DNA of 41,535 nt from Acidobacteriota bacterium (GCA_022827025.1 JAJDTT010000178.1:1-41535), one strand, 5' to 3'. Shown: positions 10,659 through 41,535, numbered from the stretch's first letter. Translations and numbers: made by a program. Notes: generated from the letters alone by a model not told the origin.

Positions 10659-10739
10659 CCCAGCCGGACCCTTGCCATGCGCTTGCGGGCCATCGCGGGC
10701 CGTCGCCATAATACTTTGAAAAGAGCCGGTCGCGAATTT

Positions 10740-13130
10740 ATGAATTCCAGGATGATCGCCGCCTGTCTGGGAGTCTCCCTGGCCGGGGCCCCTCAATTCC
10801 ACGCGGCGGGCAAAGGTGTCTTCAAGAGTCCCGGCGCCGGACTCCAACAGCAAATTCCCCCCCCTGCCCCACCGTCGCTGAACCCATACCGGACGCTCCT
10901 GGACCGCTACTGCGCCGGCTGTCACAACCGGCAACTCAAGACCGCGGGAGTCGAGCTCGATCATCCGGACCTGGCCCGGGTCGGTGACGACGCCCCGGTC
11001 TGGGAGAAGGTGGTTCGCCAACTCAGATCCGGTGCGATGCCGCCGGAGGGGATGCCGCGGCCTCCGGCGGAGGAACGTTCGGCGTTCAGTTCCTGGCTGG
11101 AATCGGCGCTCGACCGGGCTGCGGAGGCCGATCCCAACCCGGGACGTCCGGCCACCTACCGCCTCACCCGGACCCAATACGCCAACGCCGTTCGGGACCT
11201 GCTGGCGCTGGAGATCGACGGCCCATCGCTGTTGCCGCCCGACGATCCGGCGTTCGGTTTCGACAACATCGCCGATTCCCTCTCCTTCTCTCCACTGCTC
11301 TTGGAAAGATACCTTTCGGCGGCCCGGAAGATCAGCCGGCTCGCCGTCGGCGACGCCACGATGCAACCGGCAGCCGCCACCTACACGCCTTCGCCTCTGG
11401 CGGTGCAGTCCGGCCGCATGAGCGAGGAACTCCCGTTCGGTTCCGGCGGAGGACTGGCGATTCGACACCATTTCCCGCTCGACGGCGAGTACGTGCTGAC
11501 GATCTCGCTGCAACGGCGCCGGACCAGCCGGCCCCGGCAACTGGACGTCCGACTGGACGGGAAGCGGCTCCGGCTCATTCAGTTGGAAGGCCAGGATCGG
11601 CGCTCGTCGTACGGTCAACCGGCGACGCCGGACTTGACCGTCCGTTTTCCGGTCGAGGCGGGGACCCGGTCGGTCGGGGTCTCGTTCCTCCGGAGAGCGC
11701 CGGCGCCCGAAGGATTGGGCCCGGCGCGGCTGCCCGTGGGCAGCCTGCGAGGCGGCCATTCCGATTGGGGAGTGCGCAGCCTCCGGATCGACGGACCCTT
11801 TCAGGCCGAGGGGCCCGGGGACACTCCAAGTCGTAGACAGATTTTCATCTGCCGTCCGCTCTCGGCGGAAGAATCCGACAAGTTGGACTGCGCCCGGCGG
11901 ATCCTGGCCAACCTGGCCCGCCGCGCCTTCCGCCGCCCGGTGACGAACGGCGACGTCGATCCCTTGCTCGGGTTCTACCGGGAGGGCCGAAGCCGAGGGG
12001 ACTTCGACGCCGGCATCCGGACGGCGCTGGAAAGGATCCTGGTCGATCCCGAGTTCCTGTTCCGGGTGGAGCGGGACCCTCCGGCGGCGGCGCCGTCAAC
12101 CGCCTTCAAACTCCGCGACCTGGATCTGGCTTCCCGCTTGTCCTTCTTCCTCTGGAGCAGCGTTCCCGACGAGGAGCTGCTCGAGGCCGCGATTGCCGGA
12201 AAGCTGGGCGATCCCCCTGTCCTGGAAGACCAGACGCGGAGGATGCTCGCCGACCCCCGCTCCGGGACTCTGGTGACGAGCTTCGCAAGCCAATGGCTGC
12301 ATCTCCGGAACCTCCGGGCCGTCACGCCGGACGAGAACCGGTACCCGGAGTGGGACGACAATCTGCGCGAGGCGCTCCGGCGGGAGACGGAGCTGTTTCT
12401 GGAGAGTCAACTGGTCCAGGACCGGAGCGTGACCGAGTTGCTGGACGCCGGCTACACCTTCGTCAACGAACGCCTGGCCCGGCACTACGGAATCCCCCAC
12501 GTCTACGGGAACCGGTTCCGGAGGGTGGACCTGGACGACGGGCGCCGCCGGGGCCTGTTGGGCCAGGGCAGCGTCCTGACCGTCACTTCGTACGCCACTC
12601 GCACGTCGCCGGTGCTGAGGGGCAAATGGCTGCTGGAGAATATTCTCGGAACCAGGGTTCCTCCGCCGCCGGCCGACGTTCCGGAGTTGCCCGAACATGG
12701 AGAGGCGGCGCGTCCCGCCTCGCTCCGGCAGCGCATGGAGCAGCATTCCAGGAACCCGGCCTGCTCCAGTTGCCACCGCCTGATGGATCCCCTCGGTTTC
12801 GCTCTGGAGAACTTCGATGCCATCGGCCGGTGGCGGGACCGGAGCCAGGACGGCGTGCCTATCGATCCCCTGGCCACCCTGCCGGACGGGACCACGATCC
12901 GCGGTCCGGCCGACCTCCGGAGCGTGATTCTGAACCGCCGGCGGGAGTTCATCCAGACTCTGACCGGCAAGCTCCTCACCTATGCCGTGGGCCGCGGCGT
13001 CGAACACTATGACATGCCGGCCATCCGTGAGATCATGAGGGAAGCGGCGCCGTCCAACTATCGCTGGTCGGCGCTGATCCTGGGCATCGTCAAGAGCCGG
13101 CCGTTTCGGATGAAAAGGTCCGCACCATGA
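10740..13130 (+). CDS. Exported c-type haem protein, DUF1587/1595/1592/1588/1585
   Basis: A 796-residue exported protein with the full planctomycete-cytochrome-associated domain chain. An N-terminal CxxCH haem site (YCAGCHN, about residue 58) is followed by DUF1587 (RLTRTQYANAVRDLL, ~140), DUF1595 (RRAFRRPVTNGDVDPLL, ~394), DUF1592 (DLASRLSFFLWSSVPD, ~458), DUF1588 (RGLLGQGSVLTVTSYATRTS, ~603) with a second CxxCH (ACSSCHRLMDP, ~675), and C-terminal DUF1585 (FIQTLTGKLLTYAVGRG). The family is widespread in Planctomycetota, Verrucomicrobiota and Acidobacteriota; its biochemical role is unproven, with periplasmic electron transfer coupled to oxidation of a macromolecule proposed. The stop overlaps the start of the DUF1552 gene by four bases (ATGA). 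The long frame upstream of 10740 is a shadow of the ankyrin gene. Confidence 0.9.
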   Translation: MNSRMIAACLGVSLAGAPQFHAAGKGVFKSPGAGLQQQIPPPAPPSLNPYRTLLDRYCAGCHNRQLKTAGVELDHPDLARVGDDAPVWEKVVRQLRSGAMPPEGMPRPPAEERSAFSSWLESALDRAAEADPNPGRPATYRLTRTQYANAVRDLLALEIDGPSLLPPDDPAFGFDNIADSLSFSPLLLERYLSAARKISRLAVGDATMQPAAATYTPSPLAVQSGRMSEELPFGSGGGLAIRHHFPLDGEYVLTISLQRRRTSRPRQLDVRLDGKRLRLIQLEGQDRRSSYGQPATPDLTVRFPVEAGTRSVGVSFLRRAPAPEGLGPARLPVGSLRGGHSDWGVRSLRIDGPFQAEGPGDTPSRRQIFICRPLSAEESDKLDCARRILANLARRAFRRPVTNGDVDPLLGFYREGRSRGDFDAGIRTALERILVDPEFLFRVERDPPAAAPSTAFKLRDLDLASRLSFFLWSSVPDEELLEAAIAGKLGDPPVLEDQTRRMLADPRSGTLVTSFASQWLHLRNLRAVTPDENRYPEWDDNLREALRRETELFLESQLVQDRSVTELLDAGYTFVNERLARHYGIPHVYGNRFRRVDLDDGRRRGLLGQGSVLTVTSYATRTSPVLRGKWLLENILGTRVPPPPADVPELPEHGEAARPASLRQRMEQHSRNPACSSCHRLMDPLGFALENFDAIGRWRDRSQDGVPIDPLATLPDGTTIRGPADLRSVILNRRREFIQTLTGKLLTYAVGRGVEHYDMPAIREIMREAAPSNYRWSALILGIVKSRPFRMKRSAP

Positions 13131-14485
13131 GGATCATCCGCAAGCTTTCACTGCCCCGCCGCACGTTCCTCCGCGGCCTGGGCGCCGCCATCGGACTGCC
13201 CTTGCTGGACAGCATGGCGCCGGCCCTGTCCGCCGGCTCCGCCGTGGCGAACCCGCCGGCCAACCGGCTGGGAGTGGTCTACGTGCCTCACGGGGCGGTG
13301 ATGGAGAATTGGACTCCCGCCGCCGGAGGGGCCGACTTCGAACTGACCCCGATCCTGAAACCGTTGACTCCGTTCCGGGACCGCCTGCTGGTGCTGACCG
13401 GACTCGACAACGAGCCGGCCGTGTCGCTGCCCGGCGAACCCGCCGGTGGACATGGCCGCATCGGCGGAGCGTTCCTGACCGGCGTGCACGTGAAACCGAC
13501 GGAAGGGGCGGGAGTCGAAGCCGGGGTTTCGCTCGACCAGATCGCGGCGGCGCAGTACGGGCAACACACCCAACTGGCTTCCTTGGAACTGGCCCTGGAG
13601 GCGACCGGCCTGTCGGGGGCCTGCGACGTCGGCTACAGTTGCGCCTACATCAACACCCTCTCGTGGCGGAATTCGACCACTCCTCTCCCCACGGAGAACA
13701 ACCCGCGCGCGGTCTTCGAGCGCCTCTTCGGCGACCAGGAGAGCACCGACCCGGCCGAGCGGCTCCGCCGGATCCGGACCAAACGGAGCATTCTCGACTC
13801 GGTCACCCGGAAAGCGTCCCGGCTGCAGGCGCGGATCGGCGCCGGCGACCGCAACAAGCTCGCCGAATACCTGGACGCGGTGCGGGACGTGGAGCGGAGG
13901 ATCCAGATCGCGGAAACCCAATCGGGCAGGCAGGCGGCGGTGCTGGAACGTCCCGCCGGGATCCCCGGCAGCTTCGAAGAGCACGCCAAGCTGATGATCG
14001 ACCTCCAGGTCCTGGCCTACCGGTCGGACCTCACCCGCGTCATCACCTTCATGATGGGCCGGGAACTGAGCCAGCGGACCTATCCCGAGATCGGCGTCCC
14101 GGACCCGCACCACCCGCTCTCCCACCACCAGTACGATCCGGAAAAGCTGGAGAAACTGACCCGGGTCAGCATTCTCCACATGCGGATGTTCGCCTATTTC
14201 CTGGAGAAGCTGCGATCCACCCCGGAAGGGGACGGCTCACTGCTGGACCAGGTGACCCTCCTCTACGGAAGCGGCATGAGCGACAGCGACCTGCACACGC
14301 CCCGCAACCTGCCCATTCTGGTGGCCGGTGGAGGCGCGGGACGGCTCAAGGGCGGCCGCCACGTCCGGTTCGCGGAGGGGACTCCGCTGACCAACCTCTA
14401 CATGACGGTGCTGAGCCAGTTGGGAGTGCCGGCCGAGCGCATCGGCGACAGCACCGGACAGGTGGAGCTCCTTTCGGACGTGTGA
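13127..14485 (+). CDS. Tat-exported DUF1552 protein
   Basis: A 452-residue DUF1552 protein. It begins with a twin-arginine signal (SLPRRTFLRGLGAAIGLPLL), so it is folded in the cytoplasm and exported by Tat. Family features include LGVVYVPHGAVMENWTP, LLVLTGLDNEP and, near the end, LLYGSGMSDSDLHTPRNLPI followed by VLSQLGVP, a layout reminiscent of the DUF1501/alkaline-phosphatase-like fold. It is coupled to the DUF1592 gene through a 4-base overlap, the usual pairing for these families. Function is unknown. Confidence 0.9.
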   Translation: MRIIRKLSLPRRTFLRGLGAAIGLPLLDSMAPALSAGSAVANPPANRLGVVYVPHGAVMENWTPAAGGADFELTPILKPLTPFRDRLLVLTGLDNEPAVSLPGEPAGGHGRIGGAFLTGVHVKPTEGAGVEAGVSLDQIAAAQYGQHTQLASLELALEATGLSGACDVGYSCAYINTLSWRNSTTPLPTENNPRAVFERLFGDQESTDPAERLRRIRTKRSILDSVTRKASRLQARIGAGDRNKLAEYLDAVRDVERRIQIAETQSGRQAAVLERPAGIPGSFEEHAKLMIDLQVLAYRSDLTRVITFMMGRELSQRTYPEIGVPDPHHPLSHHQYDPEKLEKLTRVSILHMRMFAYFLEKLRSTPEGDGSLLDQVTLLYGSGMSDSDLHTPRNLPILVAGGGAGRLKGGRHVRFAEGTPLTNLYMTVLSQLGVPAERIGDSTGQVELLSDV

Positions 14486-28013: not shown

Positions 28014-29483
28014 TCAAACCCTGCCTTTCTCGAAGGGCAGAACGGCCCACTTCTCTCCATGCCGCCGCAGCCAGGTGACCAGTTCTCCACGCAACCGGTC
28101 CGTGACTCCGGCCAGAGCCGGGTCGCCGATCCGGTTGCGGTGTTCCGTGGGGTCGGTCGCCAGATCCCACAGCTCGTTGGGACCGAACCCCTGGTTGCGC
28201 ATCACGTACTTGTAACGGGGCTCCCGGACGCAGTAGGTGTTGCCCAGGTAGGCGTAGACCCGGTCCACCCAGCCCGCCGGACGCCGTCCCCGCAGCAAGG
28301 GCCCGCACCTCCGGCCGCAGTAGTTGCCCTCCCGCGGCAGTCGAATGCCCAGCAGGTCGCAGAGGGTGGGCAGAATGTCGTAAAAGCTCACCAGTTCCCG
28401 GCGCACCGCGCCCGACTCGATCCTTCCCGGCCAGCGCCACAAGGTGGGAACCTGCAGAACCTCCTCGTACATGACCGGCGGCCAAGCCGCCTCTCCCTTG
28501 CTCCAGAGGCCGTGGCGGCCGTGCAGGTAGCCGTTGTCGCCCACGAACAGGACCAGTGTGTTTTCGGCCAGGCCGTTGTCGTCGAGGTAGTCCAGCATCC
28601 AGCCGATCCGGTCGTCGAGGGCGGTGGTGGAGGCGGCGGCGCCCCGCATGTTGGCGACCGGATCGTCCATCAATTCCGCCTCCCGCAGGGCGTCGCGCCG
28701 CTTGGGCTCGAAGCCCACCGACTCGAAGTCCTCTTGGGCATACAGGTCGTAGTACTTCTGGGGATGGCCTGCGTACGGCGTGTGCGGATTGAAGTGGGAC
28801 AGGGTGAGAAACCACGGCTCGCGCCGGTCCCGCACCTGCTCCAGAAAACGGATCCCCTCCTGGTGGATGAGGTCGGCGATGTAGCCTTTCTCAGACACCG
28901 GCTCCGTGCCTCGGAACATGTTGGGGTTCCGGTTCAGGTTGGGGCGGTCCTGCGTATACCAGAACCCGTATCCATGCTGGGGCCTGCCGTTTTCGCCCAG
29001 GTGCCACTTGCCGCTGTAGCCGCAACTGTATCCCTCCTCCTTCAGGAGGTCGGAGATGAAGATCTCGTCTCGCCAGCTCCGGGGAAGCCGCGCCTGTCCC
29101 TGAGGCGGATTGGCGATGGGCCGCGGCGTGAGCCAGTCGTGGATCCCGGTCTGGGGCGGAATCCGACCCGTCATCAGCGTGGCCCGGCTGGGAGAGCAGA
29201 TGGGGGTACAGACGAATCCGTTCTCGAACCGGGTGCCGCCGGCCGCCAGACGATCGATGTGGGGCGTCCAGATCACCCGGTTGCCGTAGCAGCCGGTCAT
29301 CCAGGCAGCCAGGTCGTCGGCAATGATGAGCAGCACATTGGGCCGTCTCTCCCGACCCCGGAGCAGCGACGGGGCCCCCAGGGCGGCGCCGGTCAAGGCC
29401 GCGGCCGTCTTCAAGACCTCCCGCCGGGACCGGCTCCTGGCGGAAGCAGGGCTCCCCGGGCTGGATCGAGGTTCTGAAGTCAT
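28014..29483 (-). CDS. Tat-exported type I sulfatase
   Basis: A 489-residue alkaline-phosphatase-fold sulfatase. A Tat-like signal (RSRREVLKTAAALTGAALG) is followed by PNVLLIIADDLAAW (metal ligands D56/D57) and the formylglycine site CSPSR (96-100), in which Cys is the residue oxidised by a formylglycine-generating enzyme or anaerobic sulfatase maturase. Further conserved strings include YSGKWHLGE and LVLFVGDNGYLHGRHGLWSKGE. It removes sulfate esters from sugars or other organics. The Met at 29483 is the start; longer in-frame starts overlap the divergent propeller gene. No maturase is seen in this window. Divergent from the propeller gene at 29563. Confidence 0.9.
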   Translation of the reverse strand: MTSEPRSSPGSPASARSRSRREVLKTAAALTGAALGAPSLLRGRERRPNVLLIIADDLAAWMTGCYGNRVIWTPHIDRLAAGGTRFENGFVCTPICSPSRATLMTGRIPPQTGIHDWLTPRPIANPPQGQARLPRSWRDEIFISDLLKEEGYSCGYSGKWHLGENGRPQHGYGFWYTQDRPNLNRNPNMFRGTEPVSEKGYIADLIHQEGIRFLEQVRDRREPWFLTLSHFNPHTPYAGHPQKYYDLYAQEDFESVGFEPKRRDALREAELMDDPVANMRGAAASTTALDDRIGWMLDYLDDNGLAENTLVLFVGDNGYLHGRHGLWSKGEAAWPPVMYEEVLQVPTLWRWPGRIESGAVRRELVSFYDILPTLCDLLGIRLPREGNYCGRRCGPLLRGRRPAGWVDRVYAYLGNTYCVREPRYKYVMRNQGFGPNELWDLATDPTEHRNRIGDPALAGVTDRLRGELVTWLRRHGEKWAVLPFEKGRV

Positions 29484-29562
29484 GGGCAAAATCTCAGTCC
29501 GAACGGTACACTGGACGGCGTCTCGCGCCAAGAGCCTGGACGTGTCCCGTACAAGCAAAACC

Positions 29563-31080
29563 ATGAGTCGGACGGTCTACAGCCTGGTTCCATGGCTGCT
29601 TCTGTGTTTCCTTCCCGGTTACGCGAAACCTTCTTCGGTTGGGACCGTCATCGACGTGGGGTCGAAGAAACAACTCTTCATCGACGACTTGTTCGTCGCA
29701 TCCTGGAATGGTGTCCGGCTGACCGTGAACCCGCCTCACAAGACCCGGGAGCGGAATCTCGTGCCCGATCCGGACCGTCCCTGGGAGGCGCTCCGCATGG
29801 CGTATCCCTGCACCGTCATGGAGGACCGGGGGAAATACCGGATGTGGTATGACGCCATGTACGACCGGCAACCGGAGGATCAGCTCCCCTACCGGCTCGT
29901 CTGCTATGCCGAATCGGACGACGGCATCGACTGGCGCAAGCCCATCGTGGGCGCGTACGCGTTTCGGGGCTCCAAGCGGAACAACATCTCGATCCCGACG
30001 GCTCCGGGAAGCGTGTTCATCGACCCCAACGCCCCGCCGGAGGAGCGTTACAAGTACTTTGGGAGAAACCGCGTGGCAATGCTCGAGGACCGGGTCGCCG
30101 GAGCCGGATCCTGGGTCTACGCGTCCGCCGACGGATTCAGCTTCAAGCCACTGTACGGAAGACCGGCCACGTGCCAGATCAGCGACACCCACGACGTCGC
30201 TTTCTGGGACCCGGTCATCGGTCGATACGTCGCCTACACCAAGTACATCGGCCACTTCGATTCCCAGGGCGCGCTGGTTCGGCCCGATCTCCCCACCGGC
30301 GTGAGGAAGGGCCGGAAGATCTGGCGCATGACCACCGATCGCCTGGACCGGTGGCCTGAAGCCAAGGTCGTCCTGGCCATGGACGCGGGGGACCCCCGGG
30401 ACGCCGACTTCTACAACTCCGCCGCAATCCGCTACCCGTACGCCGATCGGACCTATTTCGTCTTTCCCAGCGCCTATTACCACTTCGTCGGCGAGTCGGC
30501 GCGGCGCAACGACGGCCCCATGGACATTCAACTGGCAGTGAGCCGCGACGGTGTCCACTTTACGCGCCCCTCCCGGAGTCCCTTCGTGCGGCGAGGACGG
30601 GACGGGTCCCATGACAGCGGTCACATGTACATGGGCCGGGGCATGCTGCGCCGCGGCGACGAGTTGTGGATGTACTACGTGGGATTCGACTACACCCACG
30701 GCGACCGGGACGCACTGGAGGAGGGAGGCAACGGGGTGATCAGCCGGCTGGTCCTGAGGCTCGACGGATTCGTGTCTGCCGACGCGGACTATCGCGGGGG
30801 AGAGATTATCAGCCGGCCGATCCGTTTCCAGGGCAACCGTCTCGAGTTGAACATGGACGCGGGAGCCGGCGGGTCGGTCCAGGTCGCGCTCCTGGACCCG
30901 GAAGGCGAACCGATCCCGGGCTACACCCTGGAGGAGTCGCAGGCGCTGGGCGGGAATTCGGTTCGGCGTCTCGTGACCTGGCAGAAGGGATCCGATCTCT
31001 CGGAACTTTCGGGAAAACCGGTGCGCCTGCGCTGGAAACTCCGGGACGTGAAGCTGTATGCCTTTCAATTCCAGGATTAG
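29563..31080 (+). CDS. Secreted five-bladed-propeller glycosidase-like protein (paralogue 2)
   Basis: A 505-residue exported member of the same family as 7283-8767, with a signal peptide (VYSLVPWLLLCFLPGYAK). In order: LFIDDLFV (38-45), DRPWEA (71-76), YRMWY (92-96), CYAESDDGIDWRKP, NNI, RYKYFGR, DTHDVAFWDPVIGRYVAYTK, LAVSRDGVHF, then the C-terminal module LDGFVSADADYRGGEIISRP with VALLDPEGEPIPGYTLEES and a final RLRWKLRDVKLYAFQF. The Sec signal and propeller suggest extracellular or periplasmic action on a glycan. It is divergent from the sulfatase across 79 bases. No catalytic triad of GH43/GH32 can be pinned down with confidence. Confidence 0.75.
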   Translation: MSRTVYSLVPWLLLCFLPGYAKPSSVGTVIDVGSKKQLFIDDLFVASWNGVRLTVNPPHKTRERNLVPDPDRPWEALRMAYPCTVMEDRGKYRMWYDAMYDRQPEDQLPYRLVCYAESDDGIDWRKPIVGAYAFRGSKRNNISIPTAPGSVFIDPNAPPEERYKYFGRNRVAMLEDRVAGAGSWVYASADGFSFKPLYGRPATCQISDTHDVAFWDPVIGRYVAYTKYIGHFDSQGALVRPDLPTGVRKGRKIWRMTTDRLDRWPEAKVVLAMDAGDPRDADFYNSAAIRYPYADRTYFVFPSAYYHFVGESARRNDGPMDIQLAVSRDGVHFTRPSRSPFVRRGRDGSHDSGHMYMGRGMLRRGDELWMYYVGFDYTHGDRDALEEGGNGVISRLVLRLDGFVSADADYRGGEIISRPIRFQGNRLELNMDAGAGGSVQVALLDPEGEPIPGYTLEESQALGGNSVRRLVTWQKGSDLSELSGKPVRLRWKLRDVKLYAFQFQD

Positions 31081-31239: not shown

Positions 31240-32730
31240 TCAGCGAAGAAACCGGATGGAGTAGAGATCGGCGTCCTTCAGGACAAACCGCAGGCGCACG
31301 GGTGTGGCGGACAGAGCGCTGAGATCGCGAGTCCGCGTCCAGCTCACCACCTGTTCCACCGAGTCGCCGAAAAGCTCCCGGGAATCCCGCAGCGAACAGC
31401 CGGGAATCGGCTTGCCTGCCTCGTCCTGGATCTCGACCCGGATGCTTCCGGCGGCCGACGTCGAATAGTTCAGGATCAGGCGCGAGCCGTTGAAGCGGAT
31501 GAGGCGAGTGGTCATTTCACCGCCGGCCAGGGGCGCCTGCACCGACACGAAGCCGTCCAGCCGGTAGGTGTACCGGCGCAGGCGGCTGGCCGGCCCCGAG
31601 TAGTAGCCTTCCGCGGCATAGATGGAGAGCTCGTCCGGTTCACCCGCTACGGATGAGGGAAGTGTGAGGATTCCCCAGCCGATCATGTTGTTGCGGGTGA
31701 CCCATCGCTCCGGCTGAAGCCCGGGGCGGATCACGGCTTCGCCCCAGCGGTGGAAACGAACACCGTCCCGGCTGCTCATGAAGACTCCGTCGGAGACTCC
31801 CGGGAATGGCCCGTCTCCATCTCTTTCGGGCAGGAACCGCTTGGGGAAACCCAGGTAGATGTGCGGTGCGCGGTCATACGGGCGGATCTGGTTCGTGTAG
31901 AGATGCTCCACCGGCGCTCCCGGATACTGCAGGAACACGGGCTCGGACCAGGTCAGAAAGTCGCGGGAGACGGCGGTCTTGACGTCGCGGACGCGCTGCC
32001 CCGTGGGATGGGTGCGTCCACTCCGAAGATAGCAGACGTAGCGCCCCCTCAGGCTGTCCCAGAAAGCCAGGTTCTGGGAATCGAGGGACATGTCTCCCTT
32101 GGGAATCACCGGCTCCTTGGCCAGGAGGGACCAGTGGATACCGTCGGGCGACTTCAGGGCGTAGACGCCGTCGTCCCCCCGGGCGATCGACTTGTACCGG
32201 GCGTCGGGAGAGGCATCGGGGTTGGTGTCCTTGAAGACCCCCATGGGATTCCGCTGTTCCGAGTCGGCCCAGGGGTCGTCCATCCAGACGATGTTGTTGG
32301 CGCGGGACCCTTCGTACTCGAACTGCCCCAGGTTGGGGCGTGTCCAGTGGATGCCGTCCCGGCTCTCGGCGTAGCAGACCAACACGTGCCGGACCTTCCG
32401 GCCCGGCTGGTAGTGCCGGCCCCCGTAGTACATGCGGTAGACGTCGCCGTCCCGGAACAGGGTGTGATGGGCGGTGAGGTTGCCCTCCCAGGGAGCATCG
32501 TGCACCAGGACCACCTCCCGGCGTTGGGGCTTGTGGAGCTGCAGGCGGGCGCCGCCGGAGAGCGACCGGATCAGGTATCGATCCACCAGGGGTTCCAGGC
32601 GCGAACCCAGATCGATGGGTTCGGAGGGCGGCTCTGACGCCAACGCCACGGCGAAGACGGCCATCCAGACTCCGCAGGCAGCGGACCGCCGTCGAAATGA
32701 ATTCCAGGATCTACCCAGGCATCGGACCAT
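31240..32730 (-). CDS. Secreted five-bladed-propeller glycosidase-like protein (paralogue 3)
   Basis: A 496-residue paralogue, very similar to the neighbour at 32792. Signal peptide at residues 15-32 (AACGVWMAVFAVALAS); DLGSRLEPLVDRYLI (40-54); DAPWEGN (78-84); GDVYRMYYGG; CYAESRDGIHWTRPNLGQFE; NNIVWMDD; LAFWDSLRGRYVCYLRSG; then APHIYLGFPKRFLP and FMSSRDGVRFHRWGEAVIRP. The C-terminal module begins LDGFVSVQAPLAGGEMTTRL and ends PVRLRFVLKDADLYSIRF. I chose ATG 32730 because GGAGGAG lies just upstream; the longer frame has no signal sequence. Divergent from paralogue 4 with only 61 bases between starts, so the two share a promoter region. Confidence 0.78.
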   Translation of the reverse strand: MVRCLGRSWNSFRRRSAACGVWMAVFAVALASEPPSEPIDLGSRLEPLVDRYLIRSLSGGARLQLHKPQRREVVLVHDAPWEGNLTAHHTLFRDGDVYRMYYGGRHYQPGRKVRHVLVCYAESRDGIHWTRPNLGQFEYEGSRANNIVWMDDPWADSEQRNPMGVFKDTNPDASPDARYKSIARGDDGVYALKSPDGIHWSLLAKEPVIPKGDMSLDSQNLAFWDSLRGRYVCYLRSGRTHPTGQRVRDVKTAVSRDFLTWSEPVFLQYPGAPVEHLYTNQIRPYDRAPHIYLGFPKRFLPERDGDGPFPGVSDGVFMSSRDGVRFHRWGEAVIRPGLQPERWVTRNNMIGWGILTLPSSVAGEPDELSIYAAEGYYSGPASRLRRYTYRLDGFVSVQAPLAGGEMTTRLIRFNGSRLILNYSTSAAGSIRVEIQDEAGKPIPGCSLRDSRELFGDSVEQVVSWTRTRDLSALSATPVRLRFVLKDADLYSIRFLR

Positions 32731-32791
32731 CGCGCTCCTCCGGGCAAAGAATACGAGAAGGGAGACGCCGCCGCATGTAGAATTCCAACCC

Positions 32792-34315
32792 ATGAAGAAA
32801 CTCTCCACTCGATTGCTGCTCTGGACTTTGCTGGCGGCCGCCGGCGTGTTCAACGGACCCGGCGCCCTGGCGTCCCAAGCGCAAGGAACCACCCCGGAGG
32901 TCCTGGACATCGGGAGCCGCCTGGAACTCTTCGTGGACCGTCATCTCATCGACGCCATGGACGGTGTGGAGCTGGAGCTGGGGCAACCTCAGCCCCGGGA
33001 GAAGGTTTTCCGGTTCGACCAGCCCTGGGAGGGCAATACGCCGGGCCACGTCGCCGTCTTCAAGGACGGCGACGTCTACCGCATGTACTATCGGGGCAGC
33101 GCCCACGAAGATTACCTCATCCGGGAGGAACTGCATCCGGGTGAGAAGATCGTTCCCTCGCACCCGAAAGTGAGTTGCTACGCCGAGAGCCGGGACGGCA
33201 TCCACTGGACCCGGCCCCATCTCGGCCAGGTGGAGTTCCAGGGGTCCCGGGACAACAACATCCTGGATCTGGGGGGCGCCACCAAGTTCAATCCGTTCCG
33301 CGACGAGAACCCCGAAGCGCCCGAATCGGCGCGGTACAAGGGGATCGGTTTCCACCGGGTCCCCGGCGCCCCACCCCACTCGGGCAAGCTGAGGGGACTG
33401 GTTCCGCTCCAGTCCTCCGACGCCATGAACTGGACCTGGATGGCTCCGGAACCGGTCATCACCGACGGGTATTTCGATTCCCACAACGTGGCCTTCTGGG
33501 ACGGAGTCCGCGGCCATTACGTGGCGCTCTACCGGGACTTCGCCCACGGGGTGCGCTCGCTCAAGTACGCCACCTCGAAGGACTTCATTCAGTGGACCGA
33601 GGGCGAGTGGGTGGACTACGGCGACGCCCCTCAGGAACACCTGTACACCAACGCCACGGTCCCCTATTTTCGCGCGCCGCACATCTACGTGGCCTTTCCC
33701 AAGCGGTATGTGCCCTGGCGGAGCCCCCAGCACTACGACTACCCGAGCGCCGCCGAGCGGCCGGGACTCTCGGAGGGGGTCTTCATGAGCAGCCGCGACG
33801 GCGTGCACTGGAATCGTTTCGTGGAAGCCTTCATCCGGCCCGGACGGGAACGGCGCAACTGGATCCACCGGACCAACTTCGTGGGCCGCGGAATCATCCG
33901 GAGCGCGGACGACGAGATCTCGTTGTACGTGACCCGGCACTACACCTATCCCAGCGTCCACGTCCGGCGGATGAGCCTGCGGCTCGACGGGTTCGTCTCG
34001 GTGAGCGCGGGCCATCCCGGCGGCGAGTTCACGACGCGGCCCCTGGTCTTCCAAGGGAAGAACCTGGTTTTGAACTACGCCACGGCGGCTGCAGGAAGCA
34101 TTCAAGTGGAGATTCAGGATGCGGGCGGGAGGCCGCTGGCCGGATTCGCCCTCCAGGACTCGATCCCCATCTGGGGAGACGAGATTGAGGGTACGGCCCG
34201 CTGGCGCCGGGCCAATGGCCGGGACCAGGATCAGCTCCGGCGCCTCGCCGGAATGCCCGTGCGCCTGAGGTTCGTCATGACCGACGCCGACCTCTATTCG
34301 TTGCGTTTTCAATGA
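32792..34315 (+). CDS. Secreted five-bladed-propeller glycosidase-like protein (paralogue 4)
   Basis: A 507-residue exported paralogue with a clear signal peptide (STRLLLWTLLAAAGVFNGPG). DIGSRLELFVDRHLI (39-53), DQPWEGN (76-82), GDVYRMYYRG, CYAESRDGIHWTRPHLGQVE, NNILDLGG, VAFWDGVRGHYVALYRDFA, the YATSKDFIQWTEGEW blade, APHIYVAFPKRYVP, FMSSRDGVHWNRFVEAFIRP, and the C-terminal module LDGFVSVSAGHPGGEFTTRP through PVRLRFVMTDADLYSLRF. The pair 3/4 is an inverted duplication. Longer in-frame starts upstream overlap the divergent gene and lack a signal peptide. Confidence 0.78.
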   Translation: MKKLSTRLLLWTLLAAAGVFNGPGALASQAQGTTPEVLDIGSRLELFVDRHLIDAMDGVELELGQPQPREKVFRFDQPWEGNTPGHVAVFKDGDVYRMYYRGSAHEDYLIREELHPGEKIVPSHPKVSCYAESRDGIHWTRPHLGQVEFQGSRDNNILDLGGATKFNPFRDENPEAPESARYKGIGFHRVPGAPPHSGKLRGLVPLQSSDAMNWTWMAPEPVITDGYFDSHNVAFWDGVRGHYVALYRDFAHGVRSLKYATSKDFIQWTEGEWVDYGDAPQEHLYTNATVPYFRAPHIYVAFPKRYVPWRSPQHYDYPSAAERPGLSEGVFMSSRDGVHWNRFVEAFIRPGRERRNWIHRTNFVGRGIIRSADDEISLYVTRHYTYPSVHVRRMSLRLDGFVSVSAGHPGGEFTTRPLVFQGKNLVLNYATAAAGSIQVEIQDAGGRPLAGFALQDSIPIWGDEIEGTARWRRANGRDQDQLRRLAGMPVRLRFVMTDADLYSLRFQ

Positions 34316-34620: not shown

Positions 34621-36321
34621 ATGCTCCGCGTTCTTCTCCTGCTGGGCATCCGATTCCTGGACATCGCCCCTGAGGCCGGCCTCGACTTCCGGCACCACAG
34701 CGGAAGTCCCGAGAAAAAGTACATCCTGGAGACCATCGGCGGCGGGGTCGCCTGGATCGACTACGACCGGGACGGTTGGCCCGACCTCTACTTGGTGAAC
34801 GGGGGCAAATGGGACGAGCTGCTGGCCGGCAACAGGAACGTTTCCAACGCCCTCTACCGCAACAACGGCGACGGCACCTTCACCGACGTCACCGCCGGAT
34901 CCGGCCTCACCAGTCCCCATTGGGGCATGGGAGCCGCGGTGGGCGATGTCGACAATGACGGCTGGCCCGACCTCTACCTGTGCAACTTCGGTCCCAACAT
35001 CCTCTACCGCAACAACGGCGACGGCACCTTCACCGACGTCACCGTCGGCAGCGGCGCCGGGAACCCCCGCTGGAGCTCGTCGGCCGCCTTCGGCGACTAC
35101 GACGGGGATGGCTGGATCGACCTCTACGTGGCCAACTACGTGGACTTCGATCCTCATTCCCCGCGTCCGCCCGAGTGCAGCTACCGGGGAATCATGGTCC
35201 ATTGCGGTCCCAAGGAAATGGTGGCCGCCCCCGACGCGCTCTACCGCAACCAGGGAGACGGAACTTTCTCGCAAGTCACTTCAGAGGCGGGCATGGAGGT
35301 GCGACCCGCCTACGGCCTCGGCGCCGTCTGGGGCGACTACGACAACGACGGGGACACGGACCTCTACGTGGCCAACGACTCCATGGCCAACTTCCTGTTC
35401 CGGAACCGGGGCGACGGGCGATTCCTGGACGTGGCGGCGCTGGGAGGGGTCGCCTACAACCGGGACGGCCGCGAGCAGGCGGGCATGGGAGTGACCTTCG
35501 GCGATTACGACCGGGACGGCTATCTGGATCTGTACGTCACCAACTTCTCCGACGATTACCACACCCTCTACCGCAACCGGAGAGGAAGACTGTTTCGCGA
35601 CGTCACCTACGCCGCGGAAGTCGCGTTCCCCAGTTGGCAGTTCCTGGGCTGGGGGGTCCACTTCGCCGATCTGGACAACGACGGCTGGCTGGACCTGTTC
35701 GTTTCCAACGGACACATCTATCCGCAGGTGGACGGCTACGAGACGGGCACCCGCTTCGCCCAGCGCAAGCTCGTTTTTCGGAATCAGGGGAACGGGAAAT
35801 TCCGGGAGGCAGCGGGAGAGTGGGGTGAGGATCTGTCGAAGACCTGGTCCAGCCGGGGAGCGGCCTTCGCCGACTTCGACAATGACGGCGACCTGGACGT
35901 GGCCGTCAACAACCTGGATGCGCGCCCCTCGCTCTTTCGCAACGACGGCGCCGGAGACGCCGGACACTGGCTGAACCTGGCACTGAAGGGAGGACCCACC
36001 AACCGGAGCGCCATCGGCACCCGGGTGATCCTTCAGGCCGGAGACTGGAGCCAGTTGCAGGAGGTCCAGGGAGGATCCAGCTACCAGGCCACCAACGACT
36101 TCCGGCTCCATTTCGGCCTGGGAGATTTGTCGGAGGCGAAGAAGCTGATCGTCCGCTGGCGCAGCGGCTCGGTACAGACCTTCGAAGGAGTCCCGGCCGA
36201 TTTTCACTACCGTCTGCAGGAAGGCGGAAAGCTCGAGACTCGACCCATCAAGGTACGAAAGGTTCGCGGCAGGACCTCCTCATCCCGAACTGACGGTGTC
36301 GCTACGAGACCCGCCGAATGA
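34621..36321 (+). CDS. FG-GAP/VCBS propeller with ASPIC/UnbV C-terminal domain (CRTAC1-like)
   Basis: A 566-residue calcium-binding beta-propeller. Seven DxDxDGxxD motifs occur: YDRDGWPDLY, VDNDGWPDLY, YDGDGWIDLY, YDNDGDTDLY, YDRDGYLDLY, LDNDGWLDLF and FDNDGDLDVA. The C-terminal ASPIC/UnbV domain holds GTRVILQAGDWSQLQEVQGG and LHFGLGDLSEAKKLIVRWRS. The N-terminus is short and hydrophobic (LRVLLLLG), a weak export signal, so an upstream start is possible, though none looks better than ATG 34621. Such proteins are secreted, adhesive or scaffolding, common in Acidobacteriota. Two exact 44-base repeats occur inside the gene (34851-34894 and 35001-35044). Confidence 0.88.
   Translation: MLRVLLLLGIRFLDIAPEAGLDFRHHSGSPEKKYILETIGGGVAWIDYDRDGWPDLYLVNGGKWDELLAGNRNVSNALYRNNGDGTFTDVTAGSGLTSPHWGMGAAVGDVDNDGWPDLYLCNFGPNILYRNNGDGTFTDVTVGSGAGNPRWSSSAAFGDYDGDGWIDLYVANYVDFDPHSPRPPECSYRGIMVHCGPKEMVAAPDALYRNQGDGTFSQVTSEAGMEVRPAYGLGAVWGDYDNDGDTDLYVANDSMANFLFRNRGDGRFLDVAALGGVAYNRDGREQAGMGVTFGDYDRDGYLDLYVTNFSDDYHTLYRNRRGRLFRDVTYAAEVAFPSWQFLGWGVHFADLDNDGWLDLFVSNGHIYPQVDGYETGTRFAQRKLVFRNQGNGKFREAAGEWGEDLSKTWSSRGAAFADFDNDGDLDVAVNNLDARPSLFRNDGAGDAGHWLNLALKGGPTNRSAIGTRVILQAGDWSQLQEVQGGSSYQATNDFRLHFGLGDLSEAKKLIVRWRSGSVQTFEGVPADFHYRLQEGGKLETRPIKVRKVRGRTSSSRTDGVATRPAE
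34851..35044 (+). repeat. Exact 44-base direct repeat inside the FG-GAP gene
   Basis: The 44 bases at 34851-34894 and 35001-35044 are identical, 150 bases apart start to start (50 codons, in frame). They encode LYRNNGDGTFTDVT twice. Identity at the third codon positions shows recent duplication or gene conversion between neighbouring propeller blades. Confidence 0.9.
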
Positions 36322-37151: not shown

Positions 37152-38417
37152 ATGATCGGCGTTGCCATCGCCGTCGTAACGGCCATCATTCTGGCAAGTC
37201 CGCTCCGGGCACAGGCGCCTCGTTTCTCGGAGCACCTGATCCAGGACGGCTACACCTACACCTACGGAGTCGGAGCCGGTGACCTGGATGGCGACGGCGA
37301 CGTGGACCTGACCAGCGCCGACGCGTTTGGTCACGACTCCCTCTACTGGTTCCAGAACGACGGAACCGGAAAATTCACGAAACTTTTCATCCAGAAGGAC
37401 GATCCCGAGCGGCTGGAACGCCATGCCCTGGGGGACGTCGACGCCGACGGGGATCTGGACGTGGTCATCGTCAAGAACCTGCACGGCGACCTGCTCTGGT
37501 TCCGGAACAACGGGACGCCCCAGGACGGTCGACTCTGGCAGAGGGTCGTCCTCACCCAGGGGATGCCCTATGCATACGACGTCGTGCTGGGCGACCTGGA
37601 CGGCGACGGGGACCTGGATGCGGCCGCTTCCGGCTGGAAGGGCAGCCACTTCTACTGGTTCGAGAATACGGGATGGCCGGGGCGGGGAGGATGGCCCAGG
37701 CACCGGATCGAGAGCAGTATTCGCGGCCGCGACAACGGGCCCTCCAGGACCCGGACCATGCGGGCCGGCGACTTCGACCGGGATGGGGACCTGGACCTCC
37801 TGGGGACGGCGCCCGAAGCCGACCTCATCATCTGGTATGAGAACCGCCGCGCCGCGCCTTCTGCAGAACCGCCCTGGCCACCCTCGAAGCCGGCGCCGGT
37901 GATCTGGACCAGGCATGTCGTGGACGACCGGACCCGCTACCCAATCCACGGACAGCCGGTGGACATGGACAGCGACGGCGACCTGGACATCCTGATGGCC
38001 ATGGGCATGCACGGGAAGCCCGGAGACGCCACTACCCATCAGGTCGCATGGTACGAGAACAACGGGACTCCGGCGGCAGGCGCTTGGCCCAAGCACCTGA
38101 TCCGGGACGGATTTCAGGACGCCTTCGAGGTGGTGGCGGGGGATCTGGACGGCGACGGCGACCTGGACGCGGCGGCCACTTCCTGGCGGACCCCGGGGCG
38201 GGTGGCGTGGTTCCGGAATCACGGCCGTCAGGATGAGCCCTGGACCATGCACCTCTTGAAGGAAGACTGGCGGAGCGCCAATCAGATCCTGATCGCGGAC
38301 CTGGACGGAAACGGCCGTCTCGACATCGTGGCCTGCGCCGAAAAGAGCACCCAGGAATTGCGCTGGTGGCGTAATCAGGGTCCGCCGGGCCGTCCCCAGG
38401 CGAGCGGGTCTCGATGA
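37152..38417 (+). CDS. FG-GAP/VCBS beta-propeller protein
   Basis: A 421-residue exported propeller with a signal peptide (IGVAIAVVTAIILASPLRAQ). Seven calcium-binding motifs occur: LDGDGDVDLT, VDADGDLDVV, LDGDGDLDAA, FDRDGDLDLL, MDSDGDLDIL, LDGDGDLDAA and LDGNGRLDIV. A strong AGAGGAG stands 6 bases before the ATG. The stop (TGA) overlaps the ATG of the next gene by four bases, so the two are translationally coupled. It is a tandem duplicate of the N-terminal ~400 residues of the fusion protein that follows: blade by blade the same motifs occur in the same order (SEHLIQDGYTYTYGVGAGDL against SEHLILDNYTYAFGVAAADL). Confidence 0.88.
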   Translation: MIGVAIAVVTAIILASPLRAQAPRFSEHLIQDGYTYTYGVGAGDLDGDGDVDLTSADAFGHDSLYWFQNDGTGKFTKLFIQKDDPERLERHALGDVDADGDLDVVIVKNLHGDLLWFRNNGTPQDGRLWQRVVLTQGMPYAYDVVLGDLDGDGDLDAAASGWKGSHFYWFENTGWPGRGGWPRHRIESSIRGRDNGPSRTRTMRAGDFDRDGDLDLLGTAPEADLIIWYENRRAAPSAEPPWPPSKPAPVIWTRHVVDDRTRYPIHGQPVDMDSDGDLDILMAMGMHGKPGDATTHQVAWYENNGTPAAGAWPKHLIRDGFQDAFEVVAGDLDGDGDLDAAATSWRTPGRVAWFRNHGRQDEPWTMHLLKEDWRSANQILIADLDGNGRLDIVACAEKSTQELRWWRNQGPPGRPQASGSR

Positions 38418-41194
38418 GGAGTCCCGTCCTTTCGGTCGGTCCCGCCCCATTACAGATCCTCTTCATCCTGGCCACGCTGGGGCACGGCGCTTCCCTGCCG
38501 GGGCAATCGGCCAGATTCTCCGAGCACCTGATTCTCGACAATTACACCTATGCCTTCGGCGTGGCGGCCGCGGACCTGGACGGCGACGGCGACCTGGACC
38601 TGACCAGTTCCGACGCCTTCGGGCACGATTCTCTCTACTGGCTGGAAAACGACGGGTCCGGGAACTTCCGGCGACATTTCATCAGTAGAGACGATCCCGA
38701 ACGCCTCGAGCGCCACGCCATCGGAGACGTGGACGGCGACGGCCATCTCGACGTGGTGGCGGTCAAGAACCTCCATGGCAACCTGCTCTGGTTTCGCAAT
38801 GTCGGGAACCCGAAGGACGGCCTCCTGTGGCAGCGTCTGGTCATCACCCGCGCCATGCCCTACGCCTACGACGTGGAGCTGGCCGATCTGGACGGGGACG
38901 GAGATCTGGACGCGGCGGCATCGGCCTGGAATGGGAGCCACTTCTTCTGGTTCGAGAACCGGGGATGGCCCGGAACCGGAGGCTGGCCGCGGCATCCCAT
39001 CGAGGACGACCTTCGCGCCCGGGACAACGGCCCCGCCCAGACCCTGACCATCAGGGCAGCCGACTTCGACGGGGACGGGGACCAGGACCTGCTGGCCACC
39101 GTTCACGAGGCGGACCTGGTGGTCTGGTACGAGAACCAGGGAAGTCGTGGCCGCGGGAAGGTGTCATGGAAGCGTCATTCGGTGGACGCTGCGACGCCTT
39201 ACCCGACCCACGGACAGCCGGTGGACCTGGACGGCGACGGCGATGTGGACATTCTCATGGCCCTGGGCATGCACGCGGAGCCCGGAGACGCCAATACCCA
39301 TCAGATCGCCTGGTATGAAAACACCGGGAAACCAACGGCGGGAATCTGGCCCAAGCACGTGCTCGCCCGGGGTTTTCAGGACGCCTTCGAGGTCGTCTCC
39401 GGTGACCTGGACGGGGACGGAGACCTCGACGCCGCGGCCACGTCCTGGCGGACCCCCGGCCGGCTCGCGTGGTTCGACAACCCAGGGGTCCGAGACCGGC
39501 ACTGGCGGACCCATGTCCTGAAGGCGGATTGGCCCAGCGCCAACCAGGTGCTGCTGGCCGACCTGAACGGCGACGGGCGACTCGACATCGTGGCCTGCGC
39601 CGAGCGGGGCAGCCAGGAACTGCGCTGGTGGCGAAACGAGGGGCGGGACCGGACCGGCGCCAGGGATGGCATCCCCGAGCCGCCGGATTCGGGACCGTTC
39701 CGGGATCTGGACGACGCGATCCTGGGGGACGCCGTCATCGTCAACGGCAAAGAGATGTTTGTCGACGATCACATCATCCACGAGCTCAAGGGGGCCCGCA
39801 AAGTCCTGAAACGGGCCGTGAAGCACCCCGACAATCCCCTGATGGTCCCCGACCGGCCCTGGGAGACCCAGAAGCTCAACCGGGGCGCGGTCCTTTACGA
39901 CGAGCCGGAGGGGATCTTCAAGATGTGGTACCCCTACTTCGTCAAGGAGGAGATGACAGCGGACGGCTGGGAGATCGAGGGTGTGCTGGGCTACGCCACC
40001 TCCCGGGACGGGCTGGCCTGGGAAAAACCGATCATCAATACCCGCGACGGGAACAACCTCGCCGACGCTCCCGTCCACGCCAATCCACCGGCCGTCTTCA
40101 AGGATCCGGCCGATCCGGACCCCCGGCGCCGCTACAAGATGATGTACGGCGGCGTGGATCCCAAGGTGCCGAACGGCTGGGCCACCTTCGTCGCCTACTC
40201 GCCGGACGGCATCCGCTGGACGCCGGAGGCCCTGAACCCGGTCGTTCCCCACAGCGACACGATCTGCTCCGTCCATTGGGACCCGCGATCCCGCAAATAC
40301 GTGAGCTACCTCCGCTTCGGGCCGCCCAACATCCGTCTCATCGCCAGGACCGAGAGCGAGGACTTCGTCCACTGGTCTCCGAAGCTCACCGTGATCCGCC
40401 GGACCAGGATGGACGAACCGTTCGCAACTCAGCACTACGGGATGAAGATCATGCCCTACGAGGGGGTCTACATCGGATTGCTGGAGGCCTACCACGGCCA
40501 GACCAACGAACCGATCCCGGCGGACAAGCTCTGGATGGACAAAGCCGACACCCAGTTGACCTTCAGCCGCAACGGCCTCACCTGGACCCGGGTCGGCCCG
40601 CGGGGCGCCATCCCCCATAGCCAGTTGGAACGGGGAGGGCGCGACTGGCGGAAGATCGCCCGGGAGTCCACCATCCTCTCCTATGGCGAGCATGGGGAGG
40701 ACTGGGACTGGGGCAGCGTCTACGCCTTTCAGCCTACCCTCGTGGTCGGCGACCGGATCCGGATCTACTACCTGGGAAACACGACCCGCCACGGGGGAGT
40801 CCGCTACCACGGCGACAGGGAAACGAGCGGGGTCGGTCTGGCCACGCTGCGGCTGGACGGTTTCGTCGCAGTCCAGGCTGCCAAGACCGGAACTCTCACC
40901 ACCAAACCCCTCGTCTTCATCGGCGACGAGCTGGAGGTCAACGCCGACGCCGAAGGGGGGACGATCCGGGTGGAAGTCCTGGGTCCGGACGGAAAGGCCA
41001 TCGAGGGATTCGGCCGGGAAGACTGCACGCCCCTCACCAGCGACAGCGTCCGTCACGTCCTGGAGTGGAACGGGAATCGGGACTGCCATTCGATCCAGGG
41101 GCGGCCCATCCGCCTGCGTTTTCACCTCGAGAGGGCGGACCTGTACTCGTTTACGCCCAGGATCCGGCATATCCAGTACGTGCCGACGCAATGA
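38414..41194 (+). CDS. Fusion: FG-GAP propeller plus five-bladed-propeller glycosidase-like domain (paralogue 5)
   Basis: A 926-residue protein. Residues ~30-410 are an FG-GAP propeller with seven calcium motifs (LDGDGDLDLT, VDGDGHLDVV, LDGDGDLDAA, FDGDGDQDLL, LDGDGDVDIL, LDGDGDLDAA, LNGDGRLDIV), homologous to the previous gene. After a linker (about 415-430) comes a full copy of the secreted family seen four times elsewhere: MFVDDHIIHEL, DRPWETQ, IFKMWYPYF, YATSRDGLAWEKP, NNL, RYKMMYGG, the VSYLRFGPPN blade, then LDGFVAVQAAKTGTLTTKPL with EVLGPDGKAIEGF and RLRFHLERADLYSF. A weak N-terminal signal is present (LQILFILATLGHGASLPG). The ATG overlaps the upstream stop by four bases. Confidence 0.85.
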   Translation: MRSPVLSVGPAPLQILFILATLGHGASLPGQSARFSEHLILDNYTYAFGVAAADLDGDGDLDLTSSDAFGHDSLYWLENDGSGNFRRHFISRDDPERLERHAIGDVDGDGHLDVVAVKNLHGNLLWFRNVGNPKDGLLWQRLVITRAMPYAYDVELADLDGDGDLDAAASAWNGSHFFWFENRGWPGTGGWPRHPIEDDLRARDNGPAQTLTIRAADFDGDGDQDLLATVHEADLVVWYENQGSRGRGKVSWKRHSVDAATPYPTHGQPVDLDGDGDVDILMALGMHAEPGDANTHQIAWYENTGKPTAGIWPKHVLARGFQDAFEVVSGDLDGDGDLDAAATSWRTPGRLAWFDNPGVRDRHWRTHVLKADWPSANQVLLADLNGDGRLDIVACAERGSQELRWWRNEGRDRTGARDGIPEPPDSGPFRDLDDAILGDAVIVNGKEMFVDDHIIHELKGARKVLKRAVKHPDNPLMVPDRPWETQKLNRGAVLYDEPEGIFKMWYPYFVKEEMTADGWEIEGVLGYATSRDGLAWEKPIINTRDGNNLADAPVHANPPAVFKDPADPDPRRRYKMMYGGVDPKVPNGWATFVAYSPDGIRWTPEALNPVVPHSDTICSVHWDPRSRKYVSYLRFGPPNIRLIARTESEDFVHWSPKLTVIRRTRMDEPFATQHYGMKIMPYEGVYIGLLEAYHGQTNEPIPADKLWMDKADTQLTFSRNGLTWTRVGPRGAIPHSQLERGGRDWRKIARESTILSYGEHGEDWDWGSVYAFQPTLVVGDRIRIYYLGNTTRHGGVRYHGDRETSGVGLATLRLDGFVAVQAAKTGTLTTKPLVFIGDELEVNADAEGGTIRVEVLGPDGKAIEGFGREDCTPLTSDSVRHVLEWNGNRDCHSIQGRPIRLRFHLERADLYSFTPRIRHIQYVPTQ

Positions 41195-41278: not shown

Positions 41279-41420
41279 CAGAAACACGAAAGAAGACGGG
41301 GGACAGGAAAGTCTCCCCTCCTGGCGCTCCCAGGGACTGCCTCCATGTTATGGGGATTATAAAGAGTGTTTGACACGCCCTACAGTTCTGGTGGCACGCT
41401 CGGCCTATCGGCCCACGTTC
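41279..41420 (-). ncRNA. Candidate omega/reRNA region at the 3' end of tnpB
   Basis: In TnpB systems the guide RNA scaffold covers the 3' end of tnpB and the DNA up to the right end. Here the 100 bases after the stop hold a stem-loop (GGGGGAC at 41298-41304 paired with GTCTCCCC at 41311-41318, with one G-T pair). Placement follows from the family rule; the fold of the whole RNA was not computed. The boundaries are approximate. Confidence 0.35.
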
Positions 41421-41535
41421 CGCCACCGGCGGCAGAAACCCCAGCCGCCAAGATGTTGATCGCAGCGTTATGGTCCCTGTCCATCCGGAGTCCGCAGGTG
41501 CGGCACCTGTAGGTCTCACTGCGTCCCGGATCGTG
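41380..41535 (-). CDS. tnpB: TnpB C-terminal end, IS200/IS605 family RNA-guided nuclease (cut by window edge)
   Basis: Fifty-one codons run in from the window edge to the stop at 41380-41382. They contain YRCRTCGLRMDRDHNAAINI: the second CxxC of the TnpB zinc ribbon and the DRDxNAAxNI block with the third RuvC aspartate. The remainder is a short Gly/Ala-rich tail ending PPEL. TnpB is the omegaRNA-guided DNA endonuclease of IS200/IS605 elements, an ancestor of Cas12. The 5' part and any tnpA lie outside the window. No truncation is visible within the part seen. Confidence 0.85.
   Translation of the reverse strand, partial: HDPGRSETYRCRTCGLRMDRDHNAAINILAAGVSAAGGGTWADRPSVPPEL

Follow-up and report, generated by a model that had tools for sequence, protein, structure and literature searches.

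The gene at positions 38414-41194 (plus strand) is a genuine fusion of two protein families and not an assembly join. In the window, by which we mean the whole stretch of 41,535 nucleotides that was analysed, it is one uninterrupted open frame, 926 codons long, with an ATG start and coding-like GC3 throughout, defined by ORF calling, same-genus homologues and dN/dS. Its N-terminal part (N-part) is an FG-GAP/VCBS propeller, and its C-terminal part (C-part) is a propeller with a beta-sandwich, predicted to fold like carbohydrate-active enzymes. We consider it reasonably probable that the product is a secreted modular carbohydrate-active protein, in which the C-part would be catalytic and the FG-GAP part accessory.

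Architecture and conservation of the fused gene

The 926-aa protein begins with a putative signal peptide or disordered N-terminus (residues 1-30, 38414-38503), recognised by eye from its composition and modelled with pLDDT <50, and is presumably secreted. There follow, all on the plus strand, the FG-GAP/VCBS propeller (residues 31-410, 38504-39643), a linker that AlphaFold2 predicts to be disordered and that varies in length between species (residues 413-436, 39650-39721), a five-bladed GH32/43/130-like propeller delimited by paralogue alignment, profile and fold (approximately residues 441-829, 39734-40900), and a C-terminal beta-sandwich (approximately residues 830-915, 40901-41158), since GH32 fold matches span both of these last domains.

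The preliminary description of this DNA had recognised both halves, and what it observed of them is borne out. Residues 16-410 share 67% identity with the product of the upstream gene at 37152-38417 (E = 2e-165), in agreement with the duplication proposed for residues ~30-410. The remainder (~430-926) had been described as a full paralogue of a second family, and residues ~441-915 indeed align over the full length, at 29-35% identity, with four unfused window ORFs identified by protein alignment: 29323-31080 (plus strand), 31240-32910 (minus), 32474-34315 (plus, with the true start probably at about 32690) and 7283-8767 (minus).

In the fused protein, PF13517 (FG-GAP_3) is matched in 7 stretches (E=3.6e-41, 140 bits against a gathering cut-off of 26.9), and DxDxDG motifs at residues 54, 105, 158, 217, 271, 331 and 383 mark one blade each. 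The AlphaFold2 model has the strands of a seven-bladed fold over residues 35-408, with fold matches to aldos-2-ulose dehydratase (AUDH) and CRTAC1. The N-terminal Ca2+-binding propeller supposed earlier is supported by this FG-GAP/VCBS assignment. Seven DxDxDG blade motifs are common to the N-part and to known propellers of this type (PF13517: AUDH, CRTAC1, integrin alpha and the PVL lectin, a sugar-binding member of the VCBS superfamily; PMC8023676). Unlike AUDH and integrin alpha, the N-part has no cupin or integrin tail domains, and the fused protein ends in a GH-like propeller and sandwich, not in leg domains and a membrane anchor. It represents a subfamily of its own, which among 396 genomes of the phylum was detected at E<=1e-35 in this genus alone.

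A protein search revealed the fused open frame in three more genomes of the same genus (G001 C32, G002 C315, G003 C108), i.e. the fused gene occurs in 4/4 sampled species. The N-part showed a dN/dS of 0.11-0.22 among these species, the C-part 0.17-0.29 and the short linker 0-0.38, with values of 0.11-0.38 in nearly all comparisons of the three segments; both parts and the linker are under purifying selection. It is the occurrence in all four species, together with selection that includes the linker, which establishes that the two parts were not joined by the assembly. The genome assembly is fragmented (318 contigs), which could favour the view that an assembly error or frameshift merged two genes, and the preliminary description had left room for a fusion found in one assembly only. 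However, three other independent genomes share the same open frame and its linker is under purifying selection, so the probability of such an artefact is practically negligible.

Outside the genus, no fusion of the FG-GAP part was found at E<=1e-35 in 38 genomes of the class and 396 of the phylum. It had been suggested earlier that the architecture be sought in other genomes; it is shared by all the sampled genomes of the genus and, at the sensitivity used, confined to them. Two genomes, G035 and G022, have long frames that were considered as FG-GAP fusions and rejected, as they are explained by a fusion to LamG or by upstream extensions that are spurious. A plasmid search gave partial, weak matches only, and the literature on the C-part family, or on FG-GAP-glycosidase fusions in such bacteria, offered nothing directly on point.

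The standalone gene and the origin of the pair

The upstream partner (37152-38417, plus strand) encodes a standalone, presumably secreted FG-GAP/VCBS seven-bladed propeller of 421 aa (PF13517 E=2.3e-35), and its ATG is preceded by a Shine-Dalgarno-like GGAG. The stop of this gene and the start of the fused gene overlap by ATGA (38414-38417, plus strand), as had been noted before, and the junction reads ...CTCGATGAGG.... The overlap is kept in three species (the window genome G000, G002 and G003). It had been proposed that the two proteins are made together; the conserved overlap agrees with this where it occurs, but in G001, the fourth species, the fused gene has no standalone copy beside it. 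Where present, the standalone gene would provide this FG-GAP propeller as a separate protein, and translational coupling is the probable means.

In a tree of FG-GAP parts, the standalone and fused copies formed sister groups. The dS between standalone and fused copies (about 0.9-1.0) exceeds that between G000 and the G002/G003 pair (about 0.28-0.35), which indicates that the duplication is older than these species.

The G001 gene (G001:C32:2142-4985, L046) has a composite character. At 69 paralogue-distinguishing sites it resembles the standalone copy as far as residue 294, with a few exceptions, and the fused copy from residue 304 on without reverting, which is the pattern expected from one crossover between tandem copies. 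On these sites, we interpret it as the product of a single crossover that recombined the standalone gene with the fused one. This form suggests that the standalone protein seems dispensable in the G001 species and that the two FG-GAP parts look interchangeable within the fusion. Together, the tandem of single and fused genes and the recombined gene of a sister species show how modular proteins of this sort come to be assembled and pruned.

The C-part family: fold, candidate active site and accessory domains

The C-part matched no Pfam family, and none of the curated enzyme families scored above the cut-off; the NCBIfam GH130 model gave a weak score (23.5 bits against a cut-off of 450) and Pfam PF04041 no match. 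A profile of 27 paralogues was more informative, matching in the PDB GH130 mannobiose phosphorylase (1e-11, 5e-9), GH32 fructosidases (1e-8) and GH117/GH43-type propellers. The AlphaFold2 model of the C-part (pLDDT 85.8, pTM 0.88) matched a GH32 endo-levanase over propeller and sandwich (4.7e-12), and its five-bladed propeller resembled the GH130 structures 7fir, 7fip and 9fj8 (TM 0.69-0.73 by target).

With the GH130 beta-mannoside phosphorylases and mannosidases (7fip, 9fj8, BT3780), the C-part has in common the five-bladed propeller and Asp564 of its FKDP motif, which the profile alignment places at the invariant catalytic-acid Asp of the family (the Asp of EDPR in 7fip). In GH130 the D142N mutant of this residue in BT3780 is inactive (PMC4599007). 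The residue is retained in 25/27 of the aligned paralogues and in 35/38 of a wider set, and R573, K575, D598 and other polar residues are likewise strongly conserved across the paralogues. The enzyme that the preliminary description had supposed in the C-part gains support from this Asp and from the carbohydrate-enzyme-like fold. However, the C-part is only about 16% identical to GH130 proteins and carries an extra C-terminal sandwich. By our reading of a weak alignment, the GH130 substrate-binding Asn/Arg near the first blade are not evident at the aligned positions, nor are the phosphate- or water-activating residues in the similarly weak profile alignment.

The GH32 fructosidases and levanases (BT1760, Thermotoga invertase) have the same layout of a five-bladed propeller followed by a beta-sandwich, but identity in the fold matches is 11-13%, and no equivalent of the GH32 Asp nucleophile (WMNDPNG-type) or of the Glu acid/base was found in the family alignment or in a weak invertase alignment. 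As neither the GH130 Asn/Arg nor the GH32 nucleophile is evident, the catalytic set of the C-part appears to be incomplete or different from those of both families; for the same reason we place the modelled C-part in the GH32/GH43/GH130 fold superfamily, but in neither the GH130 nor the GH32 family. One paralogue with a C-terminal LamG domain has Thr at the aligned position of Asp564, so that some members of the family, at least, may lack catalytic activity.

The family is remarkably expanded in the window genome (5.3 Mb), where 115 loci match the C-part, 106 of them over >=1200 bp, giving about 105 full or near-full copies. At E<=1e-15 it was detected in 8/60 relatives, four of them being of this genus; at most about 25 candidates per genome were scored in this search, so the per-genome counts are lower bounds.

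Real fusions were picked among the long open frames by coding-type GC3. A LamG domain is fused to the N-terminus of the C-part in C63 and to the C-terminus in C205, BNR-like propellers occur in C316, C129 and C285 (the Pfam evidence being weak and limited to C285), and an unnamed sandwich-like domain is found in C76. Such BNR-like, sandwich-like and LamG fusions are located at L081, L082, L083, L084, L086, L078 and L088. A LamG-like fusion, judged by eye, is also present in another family of the class. Many long frames of the window genome (in C102, C213, C242, C84, C83, C44 and others) were dismissed as fusions, since the GC-by-codon-position pattern of their extensions is not that of genes.

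A tree of 38 C-parts requires the fusion label to change at least four times, which shows that C-part fusions arose repeatedly. The FG-GAP domain is known on 1 of the about 105 C-part genes and looks like an exchangeable accessory, one case of a modular habit. CAZymes that bear accessory binding modules such as LamG are comparable, in that sister C-part genes have LamG at either end; the accessory of the fused gene differs in being an entire FG-GAP propeller. The fusion had been regarded as a hint to the function of both families. Since FG-GAP is one of several fused partners, next to LamG, BNR-like and sandwich domains, this hint is weakened for the C-part, while the accessory view of the N-part is supported.

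Proposed function and genomic surroundings

In the reading that we favour, the C-part, with its GH32 layout and a propeller nearest to the GH130 fold, is most likely the catalytic domain and would cut or modify a glycan, with Asp564 serving as the acid. The N-terminal propeller, bearing seven Ca2+-type loops and followed by a flexible linker, would most likely be accessory and bind or position the substrate or matrix; the LamG, BNR-like and sandwich domains of the sister genes may play the same role. A secreted carbohydrate-active module would thus have repeatedly gained accessory binding domains, FG-GAP among them. The preliminary description went further and had both propellers acting on one ligand. 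In the whole-protein AlphaFold2 model the domains are confident, but because of the low-confidence linker and a pTM of 0.61 it gives no interface to judge, and neither a fixed interface nor a ligand common to both propellers finds support in it.

The evidence may also be read in other ways. FG-GAP domains are integrin- and lectin-like and the C-part is without a complete recognisable catalytic set, which would suit a secreted adhesin or glycan-binding scaffold composed of two non-catalytic recognition domains. We regard this as unlikely, given the strong conservation of Asp564 and the other polar residues across paralogues and the fact that the best fold matches of the C-part are almost only enzymes. 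It is very improbable that the C-part is a propeller of the sugar deacetylase type and not a glycosidase: its best PDB profile match is 6n1a (7.8e-13), identical in sequence to 6n1b, which is labelled as an N-acetylgalactosamine deacetylase, but this match is split into three segments whose register shifts along the blade repeats, and in the fold search it ranked below GH32 and GH130.

The roles could also be divided differently, the N-part being an enzyme of the AUDH kind and the C-part a second enzyme or a binding domain of a bifunctional sugar-converting protein. AUDH is the best PDB match of the N-part by profile (5.8e-7) and by fold (ranks 1-3). Invariant polar residues (R100, H101, R214, H266 and E326 in P0001 numbering) stand where strand A begins, immediately ahead of the DxDxDG loops, and propeller geometry suggests that they line the channel, and H266 is aligned with an AUDH His (residue 337 by our count of the alignment), which we take to bind the active metal. 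However, only one of two aligned AUDH His positions is conserved in the N-part family, the other varying between His (P0001) and Pro (P0002), the Pfam model of the AUDH propeller, PF22301, remains below its cut-off (16.2 bits against 27 for P0002), and the match reflects a common VCBS ancestry that includes lectins and integrins. We find this bifunctional arrangement rather unlikely.

Returning to the catalytic C-part with an accessory N-part, we tentatively suggest that the C-part represents a family of carbohydrate-active enzymes, as yet unnamed, within the GH32/43/130 fold superfamily (about 105 copies in one 5.3 Mb genome) that has repeatedly captured accessory propellers and lectin-like domains, the FG-GAP copy being a dedicated two-propeller enzyme of the genus. 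The fused protein is ordinary in kind, as a modular secreted propeller, while its paralogous family is unusually large and unnamed. That one genome holds so many copies of an uncharacterised glycosidase-fold family points to a large repertoire for glycan processing that is still unexplored, and the variety of fused accessory domains provides natural constructs for telling the binding domain from the acting domain.

It had also been suggested that separate genes for the two domains might be neighbours. A standalone FG-GAP gene divergently adjoins a C-part gene in C88, an arrangement kept in G001 and G003, and in C129 and C53 the C-part gene nearest to a standalone FG-GAP gene lies about 5 kb off. 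As 20% of all genome positions have a C-part gene within 6 kb, and 6.7% have one within 1 kb, the closeness of these three FG-GAP genes, one adjacent and two within about 6 kb, is only suggestive.

The window also encodes a sulfatase, a GHL10-type hydrolase, an enolase-superfamily protein, a TPP enzyme, an SDR and a sodium:solute symporter, a gene content that fits a sugar-processing island. A separate FG-GAP protein with an UnbV_ASPIC domain (34621-36321) is encoded upstream of the pair, and is near it in G001-G003 too. Elsewhere (L049:3399-5845), a standalone FG-GAP gene is followed on the same strand by a BNR-repeat (sialidase-like) gene, which is conserved in the genus. At 9612-14485 a PSD/PSCyt-domain gene (DUF1592/1588/1595/1585/1587) adjoins a DUF1552 gene, a pair that occurs in planctomycete and verrucomicrobial genomes. 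Finally, 41379-41535 (minus strand) was recognised by eye as the C-terminal zinc-ribbon end of a TnpB-like (IS605-type OrfB) protein, ...TYRCRTCGLRMDRDHNAAINILAAG..., and the contig probably stops at 41535 due to this gene.
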